From Streptacidiphilus anmyonensis (GTDB lineage: Bacteria > Actinomycetota > Actinomycetes > Streptomycetales > Streptomycetaceae), in contig NZ_BBPQ01000044.1 in NCBI RefSeq assembly GCF_000787855.1, positions 1-64,000 of the forward strand: 64,000 nucleotides of DNA, written 5' to 3'. The notes beneath the pieces were generated by a model, which saw only the letters and a list, made by a program, of their open reading frames with translations, searched no databases and was not told the origin of the DNA. Positions within the stretch are counted from its first letter, which is position 1, and the number at the start of each line of letters is the position of its first letter. Shown piece by piece: positions 5,002 to 12,359 of this stretch. The position numbers and the translations under genes were made by a program.

Positions 5002-6552
5002 ATGACCGCCCTGCTCCTCGCCCTGCTCGCGCTGCCGCTGGCCGGCGCCGCCGCCACGCTGGTGCCGGCGCTCGGCGGGCGTCGCGCGCTCTGGTTCGGC
5101 GTCGCCGTCACCGGAGCCGACCTCGCCCTGGCCGTCGCCCTGGCCGCCGGCTTCGACCTGCACCGCCCCGCCGTCATGCAGGGGGTCACGAACGTCGCCT
5201 GGATCCCCGCCCTGAACGTCCGCTTCCACGTCGGCGTCGACGGCATCTCGCTGCCGCTGCTGGTGCTGACGGCGCTGCTGACGTTCCTGTGCGCGCTCTA
5301 CTCGCTGAAGAAGCTGCCCTCAGGCGGCAGCGAGCGGGCCTGGACGGGCCTGCTGCTGCTCCTGACCACCGGCATGCTCGCCACCTTCGCCGTGCTCGAC
5401 CTGCTGCTGTTCTTCCTGGCGTTCGAGATCGTGCTGGTGCCCATGTACTTCATGATCGCCCGCTGGGGCGGGGAGAACCGGGGACCGGCCGCGTTCCGCT
5501 TCATCCTCTACACGCTGCTCGGCTCCGCCGTGATGCTGCTGGGGCTGCTGGTGCTCGGCCTCAAGGCCGGAACCTTCGACATGACCGCGCTGGCCGCGAA
5601 CCACGGCCTCGGCCTCTCCCGCGGCACGCAGATCATCGTCGTGCTCGCCGTCGGCGTCGGACTGGCCGTCAAGTCGCCGATGTGGCCCTTCCACAGCTGG
5701 CTGCCCGACGCCCACACCGCCGCGCCCACGGCGGGCTCGGTGCTGCTGGCCGGCGTACTGCTGAAGATGGGCACCTACGGCTTCGTCCGGGTGCTGATCC
5801 CGAGCACGCCGCTCGGCATGCACACCCTCGCGCCCTACCTCGGCGCGTTCGCCGTGGTCGGCATCCTCTACGGCTCGCTCGCCTGCCTCTCCCTGGTCCG
5901 CCCCGGCGCCAAGGGCGACCTGAAGCGCCTGATCGCCTACTCCTCCGTCGGCCACATGGGCTTCGTCCTGCTCGGCATCGCGACGCTGACCGCCACGGGC
6001 GTCAACGGCGCGCTCTTCGCCAACATCGGCCACGGGCTGATCACCGGCCTGCTCTTCTTCCTGGTCGGCGCGGTCAAGGACCGCTACGGCACCGCCGACC
6101 TCGACGCGCTCGCCGGGGCGGGAGCCGACACCGGCGCGGCGCTGTACGGGAGGCTGCCGCGTCTCGGCGGCCTGCTGGCGTTCGCCGCCGTGGCCAGCCT
6201 GGGCCTGCCCGGTCTCGCCGGGTTCTGGGGCGAGCTCCTCGCCATGCTGGGCTCCTTCCAGCCCGCCGCCGGCCTCTCCCGGCCGACGTTCGTGACCCTG
6301 ATGGTGCTGGCCGGGCTCGGCACCGTGCTCACCGCGGCCTACCTCCTCTCCGTCGTCCGCCGCGTCTGCATGGGCGATCCGGCCGCGGAGCCCCCGGCCG
6401 TCGCCAAGGCCCCGGCCCTCGCGGACGTCCAGGGCTACGAGGCCGCCACCTGGACCCCGCTGGTCGTCCTGACCGTCGTCGCCGGGCTGTGGCCCGCGCT
6501 GCTGCTCGGGCTGACCACCCCCGCCGTCAAGGCCCTGCTCGGAGGCAGCTGA
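5002..6552 (+). CDS. nuoM: NADH-quinone oxidoreductase subunit M
   Basis: Proton-pumping antiporter-like subunit of complex I (516 residues). The key membrane glutamate lies in FEIVLVPMY (Glu about 143), and the lysine-bearing helix region KSPMWPFHSWLPDAH lies near residue 225. About fourteen hydrophobic segments are visible. A GGAGG site precedes the ATG. Three bases separate it from nuoN. Confidence 0.97.
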   Translation: MTALLLALLALPLAGAAATLVPALGGRRALWFGVAVTGADLALAVALAAGFDLHRPAVMQGVTNVAWIPALNVRFHVGVDGISLPLLVLTALLTFLCALYSLKKLPSGGSERAWTGLLLLLTTGMLATFAVLDLLLFFLAFEIVLVPMYFMIARWGGENRGPAAFRFILYTLLGSAVMLLGLLVLGLKAGTFDMTALAANHGLGLSRGTQIIVVLAVGVGLAVKSPMWPFHSWLPDAHTAAPTAGSVLLAGVLLKMGTYGFVRVLIPSTPLGMHTLAPYLGAFAVVGILYGSLACLSLVRPGAKGDLKRLIAYSSVGHMGFVLLGIATLTATGVNGALFANIGHGLITGLLFFLVGAVKDRYGTADLDALAGAGADTGAALYGRLPRLGGLLAFAAVASLGLPGLAGFWGELLAMLGSFQPAAGLSRPTFVTLMVLAGLGTVLTAAYLLSVVRRVCMGDPAAEPPAVAKAPALADVQGYEAATWTPLVVLTVVAGLWPALLLGLTTPAVKALLGGS

Positions 6553-6555
6553 CCC

Positions 6556-8067
6556 ATGCTGACCGTCGCCGCCCCCTCGCTGATCCAGTCCGTCGACTGG
6601 GCGGCGATCGCGCCGCCGCTGGTGCCCGCCGCCCTGGCGCTCGTCGTCCTCGTCGCGGACCTCTTCCTGCCGCCCGCCCGCAAGGCGCTGCTCGGCTGGC
6701 TCACCGTCGCCGGGCTCGTCGCCTCGCTGGCGCTGCTGGTGCCGCTGCGCGGCGGCCACCACCGCACCTTCTGCCTCCCGAGCCAGGCGGCCCAGGCCCA
6801 CGTGCCGGTCTCCTGCTCGTATGTGGCCGACCACTTCGCGCTGGCCTTCCAGCTGCTGGTGCTGGGCGGGGCGCTGCTGGTGGCGCTGCTCTCGATCGTC
6901 TCCGTCGACGAGGACCGCCTCCCCGCCGGTGAGTTCTGGTTCCTGCTGCTCGCCTCGACCTGCGGGGCGGCCCTGCTGCCCGCCTGCCGGGACCTGGCCT
7001 CGCTCGTCGTCGCGCTGGAGCTCGCCTCGCTGCCCGCCTTCGCGCTCGTCGCGCTGCGCCGCGACGGCCGCGGCGGGGAGGCCGCGCTGAAGTTCTTCCT
7101 GTCGTCGGTGACGGCGACGGCCGTCACGCTGCTCGGCGTCAGCTTCGTCTACGCCGCCAGCGGCAGCCTCTACCTGGACCGGATCGCCGCGGCCCTGCCG
7201 AACGTGCCCGACCAGCTGCAGCCGCTGACCGCCGTCGGGACCGTGCTCACCCTCGTCGGCTTCGCCTTCAAGACCGCGGCGGTGCCGTTCCACTTCTGGG
7301 TGCCCGACACGTACGCGGGCGCTCCTGTGCCCGTGGCCGGATACCTCTCCGTGGTCGGAAAGGCTGCCGGACTGTCCGGCCTCGCCGCAATCGCCGTGCT
7401 CGGTTTTCACTCCTACGGGCGAGACTGGGGCCTGGCCCTCGCCGTACTGGCCGCGCTCACCATGACGGTCGGCAACGTCGGCGCGCTGCGTCAGCGCGCC
7501 GACGCCCCGTACAGCGCGGTCCGGCTGCTGGCCTGGTCCTCCGTGGCCCAGGCGGGCTATCTGCTGGTCCCGATCGCCGCGGCCGGCTACGGCGCGAGCG
7601 CGCACGCCGTGGGCGCGACCGTCGCCTTCGCGCTCGTCTACGGCGTGGTCAACCTCGGCGCCTTCGCCGTGGTCACCTCGGCGGGCGCGCGACTGGACGA
7701 GTACCGCGGCCTGTTCTCGCGCCGCCCGGCGGCGGCGCTGGCGATGGCCTTCTTCCTGCTGAACCTGGCGGGCCTGCCTCCGGGCGTGATCGGCCTGTTC
7801 GGCAAGGTCGTGGTCTTCCGCGCGGTGGTCGACGCGGGGATGGGCTGGCTGGCCGTCATCATGGCCGTCAACGTCGTGATCGCGCTGTACTACTACCTCG
7901 TCTGGACGGCCCGGCTGTTCCAGTCGGCGCCGGACGCGGTCGCGACGCGCCGCCGGGTTCCGGGCGCGCTGGTCGGCGCGCTCGCGCTGGCCGCGGCGCT
8001 GGGCGTGGTGCTGTCGGTGGACCCGCAGATCGTGATGCAGCTCGCCTCGGGCTCCCTCTTCGGCTGA
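6556..8067 (+). CDS. nuoN: NADH-quinone oxidoreductase subunit N
   Basis: Third antiporter-like proton-pumping subunit of complex I (503 residues). The conserved FKTAAVPFHFWVPDTY motif starts near residue 238, with about fourteen hydrophobic segments. It is the last gene of the nuo operon here; the next gene starts 150 bp downstream with its own ribosome site. Confidence 0.97.
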   Translation: MLTVAAPSLIQSVDWAAIAPPLVPAALALVVLVADLFLPPARKALLGWLTVAGLVASLALLVPLRGGHHRTFCLPSQAAQAHVPVSCSYVADHFALAFQLLVLGGALLVALLSIVSVDEDRLPAGEFWFLLLASTCGAALLPACRDLASLVVALELASLPAFALVALRRDGRGGEAALKFFLSSVTATAVTLLGVSFVYAASGSLYLDRIAAALPNVPDQLQPLTAVGTVLTLVGFAFKTAAVPFHFWVPDTYAGAPVPVAGYLSVVGKAAGLSGLAAIAVLGFHSYGRDWGLALAVLAALTMTVGNVGALRQRADAPYSAVRLLAWSSVAQAGYLLVPIAAAGYGASAHAVGATVAFALVYGVVNLGAFAVVTSAGARLDEYRGLFSRRPAAALAMAFFLLNLAGLPPGVIGLFGKVVVFRAVVDAGMGWLAVIMAVNVVIALYYYLVWTARLFQSAPDAVATRRRVPGALVGALALAAALGVVLSVDPQIVMQLASGSLFG

Positions 8068-8216
8068 CCGGCCGGGCCCCTCCCCGGTCAGCCCGGGTCG
8101 GTCACCCGTACCGGGGACCCCACGGGTGAGCAGGGAACCAGGGAATCCGTCCCACCCGTTGGAAGTCCTGAACGGGCTGTGAAAGACACCCCCCACGCAC
8201 GTCTCGGAGGGCTTCC

Positions 8217-9089
8217 GTGCACCGCCAGCACAACGGTCTGAAGACGGCCGTACTCCTCGGCGCGATGTCCGCGCTGATCCTTGTGATCGGCAGCTTCTGG
8301 GGCCGTACCGGCCTCGTCATCGGACTGTTCGTCGCGCTGGCGACCAACGGCTTCGCCTACTGGAACAGCGACAGGCTGGCACTGCGCTCGATGCGGGCCC
8401 GCCCGGTCAGCGAGATCGAGGCGCCGGTGATGTACCGGATCGTCCGTGAGCTCTCCACCTCCGCGCGTCAGCCGATGCCGCGGCTCTACATCTCTCCCAC
8501 GGACGCGCCCAACGCCTTCGCCACCGGCCGCAACCCCCGCAACGCCGCGGTCTGCTGCACCCAGGGGATCCTCAACATCCTGGACGAGCGGGAGCTGCGC
8601 GGCGTGCTCGGCCACGAGCTGTCCCACGTCTACAACCGGGACATCCTCATCTCCTCGGTGGCGGGCGCGCTGGCCTCGGTCGTGATGTTCCTGGTCAACT
8701 TCGCCTGGCTGATCCCGATCGGCCGCAGCGACGACGACGAGGGCCCGGGCCTGGTCGGGATGCTGCTGATCATGATCCTCGGCCCGCTGGCCGCGAGCAT
8801 CATCCAACTGGCCGTCAGCCGCTCCCGCGAGTACCAGGCGGACGCCTCGGGCGCCCAGCTGACCGGGGATCCGCTCGCGCTGGCGAGCGCGCTGCGCAAG
8901 CTGGAGCGCGGCACGCAGCTGCTGCCGCTCCCGGCCCGGCCCGAGCTGGAGACCACCAGCCACATGATGATCGCCAACCCGTTCCGGGCCGGTTCCGGCG
9001 GCGGGATCGCCACCAGGCTGTTCTCGACGCACCCGCCCATGCCGGACCGCATCGCCCGCCTGGAGCAGATGGCCGGCCCCCTGGGCTGA
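8217..9089 (+). CDS. htpX: M48-family zinc metalloprotease, HtpX-like
   Basis: Membrane-bound zinc endopeptidase (290 residues), by family a quality-control protease for misfolded membrane proteins. Two N-terminal membrane segments are followed by the zinc motif HELSH at residues 133-137 and the third ligand Glu205 in [11 protein letters not shown] second pair of hydrophobic segments lies between them. The GTG start is preceded by GGAGG at 8206-8210. It converges with the Nramp-like gene only 17 bp downstream. Confidence 0.93.
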
Positions 9090-9106: not shown

Positions 9107-10450
9107 TCAGGCCAGCCCGAACCAGCCGAGCACCGTGTCCACCAGCAGGATCGTCGACATCAGCGCGACGCCCACCACGACGACCGTGGCCACGATCCGG
9201 TAGCGCGGGCTGTTGGCGTGCGCGCCCAGCAGGCTGCGGCGGTTGGTCAGGATCAGCAGGTAGACCAGGATGATCGGGGTGATCAGGCCCTGCAGCACCT
9301 GAGTGCCGATCAGCAGCTGGATCACGTCGACCGGCGTCATCGCCACCGCCGCGCCCAGCAGGATCTGCGCGGTGAACAGGCTGAGGAAGAACGGCGCGTC
9401 GCGGAACGAGCGGGAGACGGAACGCTCGACGCCGGCCGCCTCGCCGATGGCGTAGCTGGCCGAGAGCGGCACGACCGCGCCCGCCAGCGCGGAGGCGCCG
9501 ATCAGGCCGACCGCGAAGAGGGCCTCCGCGCTCTGCCCGGCCACCGGCTCCAGCGCCTTGGCCGCGTCCGCCGCCGAGTTCAGCGGACCCGTGCCGCCGA
9601 TGGCGGAGGCGGTGGCGATGATGATGGTCAGGCTGATGACGCAGGCGAACACGGCGCCGATGATCGCGTCCGCGCGGATCAGCGGGTAGTCGATGGTCCG
9701 GGTGCCGCGGTCGACCACGCCGGCGGCGGCGTAGAACTGCATGTAGGGGCTGACCGTGGTGCCGATCAGGGCGACGGCCAGCAGGATGAAGGCCTTGTCG
9801 CCGGTCAGGTGGGGGATCACCAGGTTCTTGCCGACGACGCCCCAGTGCGGCTTGCCCAGGATCATCGCGATCGGGTAGGCGAAGAAGACCAGCGACATCA
9901 CCAGGAAGATCCGCTCGGCGTAGCGGTAGGAGCCGAACAGCACCAGCCCCCACAGCAGCAGCGCGGCGGGCGGGATGATCGCCCACTTGGGGATGCCCAG
10001 CAGTTCGAAGCCCGCGCCGATGCCCGCGAACTCGGAGACCACCAGGCCGGTGTTGGCCAGCAGCAGGCAGCCCAGCGCCAGCCCGGTCGCGCGCAGGCTG
10101 AACTGCTCGCGGATCAGTGCGCCCAGGCCCTTGCCCGTGAAGGCGCCGAGCCGGACCGCCATCTCCTGCACCAGCACCAGGGCGATGGTGACCAGCACCA
10201 TGAAGAACAGCGTCCCGTAGGCGTACTGCGATCCCGCGCTGGCGTACGTCGCGATGCCGGCCGCGTCGTTGCCGGCGTTCGCCGCGACCAGGCCGGGGCC
10301 GGCCACGCCGACCAGGGCCACGATCCTGGTCCAGCGGCTCCAACGGGTGACGCGGCCCAGCACGGGGATCCGGGCCAGTCGGCTCGCCGGCGCTGCGCCG
10401 GGCTCGGCCGCCGCGGCCTCGCCCTGGGCGCTGTCGGTGTCGACGGTCAC
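9107..10450 (-). CDS. Nramp-fold divalent cation transporter with altered metal-site motifs
   Basis: Integral membrane transporter of the Nramp/SLC11 fold (447 residues, about eleven helices after a 40-residue cytosolic N-terminus). The helix-1 metal motif DPGN of Mn/Fe transporters reads NAGN here (residues 58-61). In helix 6 the canonical TVMPHN reads TVSPYM (232-237), so the substrate methionine and neighbouring histidine are replaced by Ser234 and Tyr236. The gene is translationally coupled (GTGA overlap) to an MgtE-like regulatory protein. Established: loss of the helix-6 Met is a mark of Nramp-related magnesium transporters. Inference: the substrate may be Mg2+ rather than Mn2+. Confidence 0.85.
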   Translation of the reverse strand: MTVDTDSAQGEAAAAEPGAAPASRLARIPVLGRVTRWSRWTRIVALVGVAGPGLVAANAGNDAAGIATYASAGSQYAYGTLFFMVLVTIALVLVQEMAVRLGAFTGKGLGALIREQFSLRATGLALGCLLLANTGLVVSEFAGIGAGFELLGIPKWAIIPPAALLLWGLVLFGSYRYAERIFLVMSLVFFAYPIAMILGKPHWGVVGKNLVIPHLTGDKAFILLAVALIGTTVSPYMQFYAAAGVVDRGTRTIDYPLIRADAIIGAVFACVISLTIIIATASAIGGTGPLNSAADAAKALEPVAGQSAEALFAVGLIGASALAGAVVPLSASYAIGEAAGVERSVSRSFRDAPFFLSLFTAQILLGAAVAMTPVDVIQLLIGTQVLQGLITPIILVYLLILTNRRSLLGAHANSPRYRIVATVVVVGVALMSTILLVDTVLGWFGLA

Positions 10451-11844
10451 TGCAGGAACCTCCGGAAGTGCAGGCGGCCCCTGGCGGGCAGCAGGTGGTC
10501 GAGGACGTCGTCGGCCAGGATCCGGCCGAGGGGACGCCGGTCCTCGTCGACGACCAGGAGCGAGGAGGCGCGTGAGGCGACCAGCCGCGCGGCCACGTCC
10601 CCGAGCCGGGTGTGCGCGTCCACCGCCTCGTCGCGGGTGAACTGGCTCAGCCAGTCCGCGATCTCGCCGATCGTGGTGCGGTCCTCGGCGACGGTCAGGT
10701 CGAACAGCGGGATGTCGGCCAGCAGCCGGCCGTCGTCGGCGACCAGCGCCACCGCGTCGATCTCGGCGCGGTGCTCGGCGGAGGTGGCCAGCTCGGCGCG
10801 GATCTCCGCCACGGTCTGCTCGCGCAGGGCGGTGACCAGGCGGGTCGTCATCGAGCCGCCCGCGGTGTCCTCGGGGTAGGCCAGCAGCTCGCGCAGCTGG
10901 GCCGCCTCGTCGTCGCCGATCCGGGTGAGCAGCTGCTCGCGCTCGTCGTGCTGCAGGTCGCGCAGCGCCTCGGCGGCCTCGTCCGGCTCCATCTCCTCGA
11001 CCAGGCGGGCGGCGCTCTCCGGAGGGGCCTCGCGCAGCAGGTTCTCCAGCTCGGCGGGCTCCATCTCCTCCAGCGCGTCGGCGGCGTGCCCGGGGTCGAG
11101 CATGGCCAGCAGCTGCTGGCGCTCGGAGCGGCCGAGGTCCTCCAGCAGGTCGGCCAGCTCGGAGGGGCGCAGCCGGTGCAGGGCGGAGCGGGACGCGTTG
11201 AGCCGCACCTCGGCCGGGCCGTCGGTGGCGTTCTCGGCGAAGGGGGCGACAGTCTGCCAGTCGACCACTCGTTCGGGTGTAGCCCGCGTCTGCCAGCGCT
11301 TCGGGCCGAGCCGCCGAAGTAGGGTGGGGAGGCTGACATCGACTCCCACCAACAGCACCCGGCCGCCGACGGGCGCGAGGTAGAGGTCGGCCGCGCGGTT
11401 CACCTGCACGCCGTCCACGTCGACCAGTTGATGGTCCAGCACATCGCGCCCGAGCAGCACCTCGCCCGGGCGGCGGACGAAGTCGGTGAGGTCCATCCGG
11501 GCGCTCTTGAGCTGCACCCGGTCCGCGCGGATCTGCCCGATCGCGGAGGCGGCGAGGAACGAGCGGCGGCGTCCGACGCGGACGACCAGACCCGTGACGG
11601 GCGGGTAGGGCTCGTTGCCGTACAGCCGCGCGACGACGTCGACGACGCGGCCGACCTCGTCGCCCACGGGATTGAGCACCGGGCGACCGGTCAGGCCGGC
11701 GAGGGAGACGAGGGCCTCGCGCACGGCGCGTGAGGCGGTGGCCTGGCGGACCAGCTGTACGCGTCGGCCGCGCAGCCGCGCCGTCGTGCCCGTGAGCAGG
11801 GCGGACGAGCTCGGGCCGGCGTTGGACGAGGTGGTGGAAGGCAT
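10447..11844 (-). CDS. PRC-barrel / MgtE N-domain / CBS-domain protein without membrane domain
   Basis: Soluble protein of 465 residues. PRC-barrel-like segments occur at about 50-110 and 125-185, followed by an MgtE intracellular N-domain superhelix at about 225-330 ending in YPEDTAGGSMT, and paired CBS domains at about 335-460. In true MgtE channels these cytosolic domains sense Mg2+ and gate a membrane domain; here the membrane domain is absent. The stop overlaps the start of the Nramp-like transporter. Inference: a detached Mg2+ sensor or gate acting on that transporter. The ATG at 11844 begins MPSTTSS. Confidence 0.85.
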   Translation of the reverse strand: MPSTTSSNAGPSSSALLTGTTARLRGRRVQLVRQATASRAVREALVSLAGLTGRPVLNPVGDEVGRVVDVVARLYGNEPYPPVTGLVVRVGRRRSFLAASAIGQIRADRVQLKSARMDLTDFVRRPGEVLLGRDVLDHQLVDVDGVQVNRAADLYLAPVGGRVLLVGVDVSLPTLLRRLGPKRWQTRATPERVVDWQTVAPFAENATDGPAEVRLNASRSALHRLRPSELADLLEDLGRSERQQLLAMLDPGHAADALEEMEPAELENLLREAPPESAARLVEEMEPDEAAEALRDLQHDEREQLLTRIGDDEAAQLRELLAYPEDTAGGSMTTRLVTALREQTVAEIRAELATSAEHRAEIDAVALVADDGRLLADIPLFDLTVAEDRTTIGEIADWLSQFTRDEAVDAHTRLGDVAARLVASRASSLLVVDEDRRPLGRILADDVLDHLLPARGRLHFRRFLQ

Positions 11845-12359
11845 GGCGGTGACACCCCCAGTTACCCGCGCGAAGGCGGATCAGGGCGGCACGAAGACGG
11901 ACGGCCTCAGGCGCGGGCCCAGGGCGCGGCGGCGGGCGCGGTCTGTGGGGAGACGCCTACCGGCGCGGGGCGGCCGACTTCGAGCAGCGGGAGAAGGCGG
12001 AGGACGAGGTGGGAACTGGGTGGGGCTGACTATGGCCCGGACTACTGTCCACGTTTCGCCTCCTTCCGATCGGGGACGCCGCACATGAGTGCGTGTTCGC
12101 GTCGCTGCGAGTCGGCGGTCTGGGGTGCCGTCGGTCTTGGGTGCCGTCGGCCTGCGATGCCGTCGGTCTGCGGTGCCGTTGACACAATGACAGGTCGACA
12201 CGGTGACAACCGGCCGGATTCTACCCAGGTGGAGCTGCAGCACGCCATTGGTCCAGCTCCAGGCCCGCTCGGGGCCCGAGTGGCAGCACGTCGAACGGGG
12301 AACCAGACTGTCATGGACGGGCGTGGAACGTGGTGGAAGCGTCGACACGGAGGAGAGAA
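11845..12359. other. 515-bp intergenic region with divergent promoters
   Basis: Gene-free stretch between the MgtE-like gene (minus) and yccF (plus). No convincing open frame is seen; the frames present have poor codon use. It must hold two divergent promoters. The only structure seen is the 16-bp tandem repeat at 12114-12177. Confidence 0.6.
12114..12177 (+). repeat. Four tandem 16-bp units
   Basis: Imperfect tandem repeat with a 16-bp period. Units start at 12114, 12130, 12146 and 12162; the consensus is GTCGGTCTGCGGTGCC. It lies in the divergent promoter region upstream of yccF. It may be a slippage product or a repeated protein-binding site. Confidence 0.8.

Follow-up and report, generated by a model that had tools for sequence, protein, structure and literature searches.

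A predicted NRMT-clade Mg2+ importer and its soluble MgtE-like partner in Streptacidiphilus anmyonensis, preceded by a conserved leader ORF

The window analysed here, a stretch of 64,000 nucleotides of Streptacidiphilus anmyonensis DNA, carries on its minus strand a two-gene operon that in its main lines, and taken as one combined statement (probability of about 0.6), we read as an NRMT (Nramp-related Mg2+ transporter) importer of Mg2+ with a Mg2+-sensing MgtE-like partner acting in trans. The upstream gene (11844-10447) encodes P0001, a soluble PRC-PRC-MgtE_N-CBS protein of 465 amino acids recognized by profile and predicted-fold matches, and the downstream gene (10450-9107, GTG start) encodes P0002, an Nramp-fold transporter of 447 amino acids that is 97% identical to that of its closest named relative, Streptacidiphilus melanogenes. 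The two genes share a stop/start overlap of 4 bp (GTGA, 10447-10450), as described in the first-pass annotation, whose coordinates and strands were correct. That annotation had also proposed an Nramp-fold Mg2+ importer with a separate MgtE-type sensor, which is still the best reading, but the combination is not uncharacterised as it supposed. Shin et al. (2014, PMC4072509) had found that most NrmT-group loci hold a gene whose homology is confined to the cytoplasmic domain of MgtE, for which they proposed cytoplasmic feedback regulation or a chaperone role. Since both the pairing and the feedback hypothesis were reported there, the locus belongs to an already published kind of gene pair, with some detail that is new. 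No later study of the MgtE-like partner was retrieved by a literature search, most subscription journals being outside its reach. Beside the operon (5002-9089) lie NADH-dehydrogenase-like (NuoM/NuoN) genes and an HtpX-like protease gene (8217-9089, plus strand), the latter convergent with the P0002 gene at a gap of 17 bp; these names were given by reading the sequences, without a profile search.

The assignment of P0002 to the NRMT clade of SLC11 is near certain from sequence comparison. A profile search matched it to the Pfam Nramp family (PF01566, E 8.8e-79), and its best relative in the PDB is EleNRMT of Eggerthella lenta (7qia; 308 bits, near full length, 40% identity over 403 amino acids), DraNramp reaching 70 bits. 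In a tree of 72 rows, P0002, EleNRMT and their relatives stand apart from DraNramp and two further Nramps (100/100), and the P0002 group is joined to the EleNRMT group (88/88), which is the outcome of the phylogenetic check suggested earlier. The canonical DPGN motif of TM1 aligns with D62-A63-A64-G65 (10256-10267, minus strand) against EleNRMT and DraNramp alike, EleNRMT there reading D-A-G-G; the metal-ligand Asp is therefore kept, the actual change being Asn to Gly. The replacement of DPGN by NAGN reported in the first-pass annotation was an error of register, AGN sitting just before DAAG as it also does in EleNRMT (AGNDAGG), and a loss of the TM1 metal ligand was rejected on this ground. 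The change of MPHN to SPYM was correctly seen: canonical AxxMPH corresponds to T231-T-V-S234-P-Y, where the TxxS motif aligned with AxxM lies at 9749-9760 (minus strand), so that Thr231 stands in place of Ala/Cys and Ser in place of the metal-binding Met. The two proton-path histidines of TM6 are replaced as well, DraNramp MPHVIYLH being aligned with SPYMQFYA. The supposed loss of the Mn/Fe-selecting residues thus holds for the TM6 Met and fails for the TM1 Asp. A canonical Mn/Fe Nramp (MntH) is ruled out by the motifs (DAAG and TTVSPY against DPGN and (A/C)xxMPH), by the score and by the tree.

One residue departs from the published NRMT signature, DxxG-TxxA/T (PMC8806188), in that the fourth ion-site position of P0002 is Ser234 and not Ala or Thr. 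This could be taken to mean that P0002 is inactive or has a non-metal substrate, its motif changes representing lost metal binding; such an explanation appears very improbable, considering that P0002 retains Asp, Gly and Thr at the NRMT ion site, that partner-bearing operons commonly show either Ser or Thr at the fourth position, and that the operon is associated with an M-box in relatives. Ser is common to the close relatives of P0002, slightly more distant ones carrying Thr. Because Ser occurs in 25 of the 62 partner-bearing operons and P0002 is placed among TxxT relatives in the tree, Ser234 reads as variation inside the NRMT clade.

The partner P0001 contains an MgtE_N domain (residues 225-326, 10867-11172; PF03448, E 3e-22) followed by a CBS pair and the start of the plug-helix position (residues 327-452, 10489-10866; CBS profile and 2yvy fold), and in structure comparison its predicted fold corresponds to that of the cytosolic domain of MgtE (2yvy; Z 24.9, rmsd 2.5, 239 residues). 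Neither a membrane helix (maximum 19-residue Kyte-Doolittle value of 1.52) nor the C-terminal MgtE membrane domain was found in P0001, which ends shortly after CBS2; profiles and hydropathy bear out its earlier description as an MgtE N/CBS protein lacking a membrane part. The preceding PRC barrels are not evident from the sequence of P0001 itself, for which the PRC profile is weak (E 0.38), and are supported by the significant match of this profile in relatives and by the predicted fold of residues 43-206 (11227-11718), which resembles that of CdpB1/CdpB2, proteins with tandem PRC barrels (Z 11.7, 133 residues). All these domains are encoded on the minus strand.

In Thermus thermophilus MgtE, the Mg2+-site residues tested by mutation include E59, D91, D95, D226, D247 and D250 (PMC5882242). 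Five of the six positions, at which mutation of MgtE stops channel closure, are acidic in P0001, namely D256 (E59), D288 (D91), E292 (D95), D446 (D247) and D449 (D250), the D226 position being the exception. In an alignment of 92 rows of NRMT-linked or related MgtE-like proteins, 91-98% of the rows have an acidic residue at these five positions (the average for all aligned acidic MgtE positions is 53%), and the D226 position is mostly Arg or Asn. P0001 stops 16 residues past the D250 equivalent, and its later plug-helix positions (E258/D259) are not acidic. The retained acidic sites of the N and CBS domains, together with this early end, suggest that the MgtE-type domain of P0001 may still be able to close on Mg2+ and would lack the segment with which MgtE plugs its pore.

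Of 80 named loci spread over several phyla, 62 have a same-strand MgtE-like gene directly upstream of the NRMT gene; a sample of 30 loci from the phylum, which includes the window, gave 26 with this arrangement. As the host genome holds only two MgtE_N genes, this pairing is beyond chance. Named loci without the upstream gene are mostly from Acidobacteriota, and these partnerless NRMTs, at eight listed loci and others, form a natural contrast set for the role of the partner; most of them read TxxTPF in TM6. Three forms of partner were encountered at NRMT loci: soluble, with one C-terminal membrane helix, and with several hydrophobic segments. The single-helix form occurs at five loci, where the transporters share 77-96% identity with EleNRMT; for its nearest relatives the value is 90-96%. 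The multi-segment form precedes the NRMT gene at twelve other loci of the phylum, where the neighbours are apparently full-length MgtE channels.

The MgtE-like protein might instead be a general Mg2+- or ATP-responsive factor, such as a chaperone or a PRC-barrel scaffold, that shares the operon without gating the transporter. The host indeed possesses a second soluble PRC-MgtE_N-CBS protein (G000, contig C153, 66333-68283) beside a DUF1003 gene and with no transporter, and related copies are nearly universal in the order, 98 of 99 genomes having a match. In the one published co-expression test, that of the Acidobacterium capsulatum pair in Bacillus subtilis, the MgtE fragment was without effect (Shin et al., PMC4072509). 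We consider this explanation doubtful, because the linkage to NRMT is strong, specific and maintained across phyla, and because single-helix and multi-helix versions of MgtE occupy the same position.

Evidence on the substrate comes from riboswitches. In the window leader no M-box (RF00380) or other Rfam riboswitch was detected, even at permissive thresholds, and this candidate was rejected for the window copy. An M-box is found directly before the MgtE-like/NRMT operon in Streptomyces coacervatus, Streptomyces violascens and two Kitasatospora (127-134 bits, for a gathering score of 44), as well as in further relatives; the transporters of close relatives with this arrangement are 82-84% identical to P0002. 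Within the order, 25 M-boxes were counted: 19 lie before another Nramp-family gene and four before the MgtE-like/NRMT pair, together 23, the remaining two being located before an MgtC gene and before an ORF with a regulator-type domain. The only M-box detected in the host precedes its second Nramp-family paralogue and not the window operon; this paralogue (G000, contig C142, 133429-135160) has the motifs DxxA-TxxA and a related leader ORF, MDGSPGPGRKRPHDTRLTSSSFGMR. Since M-boxes precede the same operon in close relatives, Mg2+ gains independent support as the substrate in this lineage, an argument that is indirect for the window copy, and it is probably the physiological substrate of P0002. 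The pair need not be the main Mg2+ route of the host, which has four CorA genes.

The same data bear on the proposal that the pair imports Mn2+ and that P0001 responds to this ion or to a different signal, an idea already raised for A. capsulatum. In that species NrmT, which has an MgtE-like gene beside it, restored a Mn-transport mutant completely, a Mg mutant needed millimolar levels for rescue, and the co-expressed pair gave mainly Mn rescue (Shin et al., PMC4072509). EleNRMT carries Mn2+ as well as Mg2+, uncoupled from H+ (PMC8806188), and the missing M-box of the window copy would also agree with a Mn2+ importer. This proposal nonetheless looks unlikely, given the M-box directly before the operon in close relatives and the absence of the transition-metal Met from P0002.

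The leader of the operon holds a small ORF, VDSSPGHSQPHPVPTSSSAFSRCSKSAAPRR (11957-12052, minus strand), that has a GGAGG Shine-Dalgarno sequence, lies 112 bp before the ATG of the MgtE-like gene and is conserved before the operon in relatives. Its peptide starts VDSSPGHSQP in the window (12052-11957) and MDSSPGHSRP in the family to which it belongs, whose ORFs, likewise with GGAGG, are situated ahead of the first gene and, in leaders that carry an M-box, behind this riboswitch. In Streptomycetales, most M-boxes are followed by a related ORF, and the genes downstream are of the Nramp, MgtE-like and MgtC types. A comparison revealed that the start codon is ATG, GTG or TTG, that the Shine-Dalgarno sequence is kept, that length variants stay in frame and that changes are partly synonymous; because of the varying start codons, the in-frame inserts and the synonymous changes, translation of the ORF is suggested. 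The core of the leader element, GGACAGTAGTCCGGGCCATAGTC (12028-12050, minus strand), contains two potential short stems and has 0 occurrences expected by chance in the window; among 392 genomes from the order, 11 contain it. A GGGCC..GGCCC stem is also kept, its counterpart in the host's other leader being GGGTCG..CGACCC, and the element may act both as peptide and as RNA stem. The leader peptide matched nothing in NCBIfam or in a literature text search. One copy of the element (G663, contig C1, 8520954-8520976) has no Nramp or MgtE-like gene within 1.5 kb downstream.

Starting from the family, the pairing, the retained sensor sites and the M-boxes of relatives, all of which the sequences show, we propose that P0002 most likely admits Mg2+, and probably Mn2+, down the membrane potential, and we infer that, like EleNRMT, it does so without proton coupling. 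P0001 would bind cytosolic Mg2+ through the retained acidic sites of its N and CBS domains and, once loaded, most likely close up like the cytosolic domain of MgtE itself; the closed form would then dock on P0002, through a physical contact that we also infer, and inhibit it when Mg2+ is sufficient. Inhibition in trans is plausible, with about even chances. The transcript leader would contribute the conserved small ORF, ahead of which the M-box of close relatives would add Mg2+ control of expression. In favour of a link at the membrane we count the single-helix partners of the nearest relatives of EleNRMT and the other NRMTs found beside a multi-helix MgtE. Counted against the mechanism are the null co-expression result with A. 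capsulatum, whose transporter favoured Mn over Mg, and the Mg2+ transport by NRMTs expressed without a partner (PMC4072509), the missing M-box of the window and the presence of the host's own on another paralogue, the D226 position, the lack of E258/D259 sites, and the four CorA genes. A wider picture, in which an MgtE-type sensor acts in trans on a carrier of unrelated fold and a leader peptide placed after the M-box adds translation-linked Mg2+ control that persists after M-box loss, is put forward tentatively, the odds being somewhat against it.

The structural work on EleNRMT left the neighbouring MgtE-like gene untreated. The comparison made here picks out residues to mutate, reveals soluble, single-helix and multi-helix partners and pinpoints Streptomyces and Kitasatospora strains with an M-box on this operon, and trans-gating of an uncoupled Mg2+ importer is thereby directly testable. 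The present analysis adds the conservation of the pairing (62/80), the M-box in close relatives, the leader ORF and the range of partner forms.

Among known systems, the closest are the pairs of Shin et al. (2014) in Clostridium acetobutylicum (Ca_c0685) and A. capsulatum, which share with the window an NRMT gene adjoining a gene for the MgtE cytoplasmic part only. The window copy differs from them in that its leader contains an ORF and lacks an M-box, in that the fourth ion-site residue is Ser, and in that the partner has PRC barrels, a feature not mentioned in the available part of that paper. P0002 resembles EleNRMT in its DxxG motif, in the TM6 Thr and in the loss of the Met and of both TM6 His, and differs in reading TxxS where EleNRMT has TxxA; the partners of the nearest EleNRMT relatives have a C-terminal membrane helix, whereas that of the window is soluble, and the 2022 EleNRMT paper makes no mention of the operon (PMC8806188). 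P0001 shares with the cytosolic domain of T. thermophilus MgtE (2yvy/2zy9) the N and CBS fold and acidic residues at the E59, D91, D95, D247 and D250 positions, but has no channel domain, is non-acidic at D226 and at the later plug-helix positions, and has PRC barrels added. In Mycobacterium tuberculosis, an M-box is followed by the conserved uORF2 (rv1805A), a small ORF with its own Shine-Dalgarno sequence before Mg2+-linked genes (PMC12810186), an organization like that of the streptomycete leaders. A simple script found a comparable ORF to be missing in many mycobacterial leaders, and those peptides that could be compared (MSKTSPGDSR, MSSSDSPGRSP) resemble MDSSPGHSRP loosely. The streptomycete ORF is of other sequence than uORF2, and the window keeps it without an M-box, but its occurrence suggests that the mycobacterial arrangement of an M-box and a small ORF also exists in Streptomycetales.
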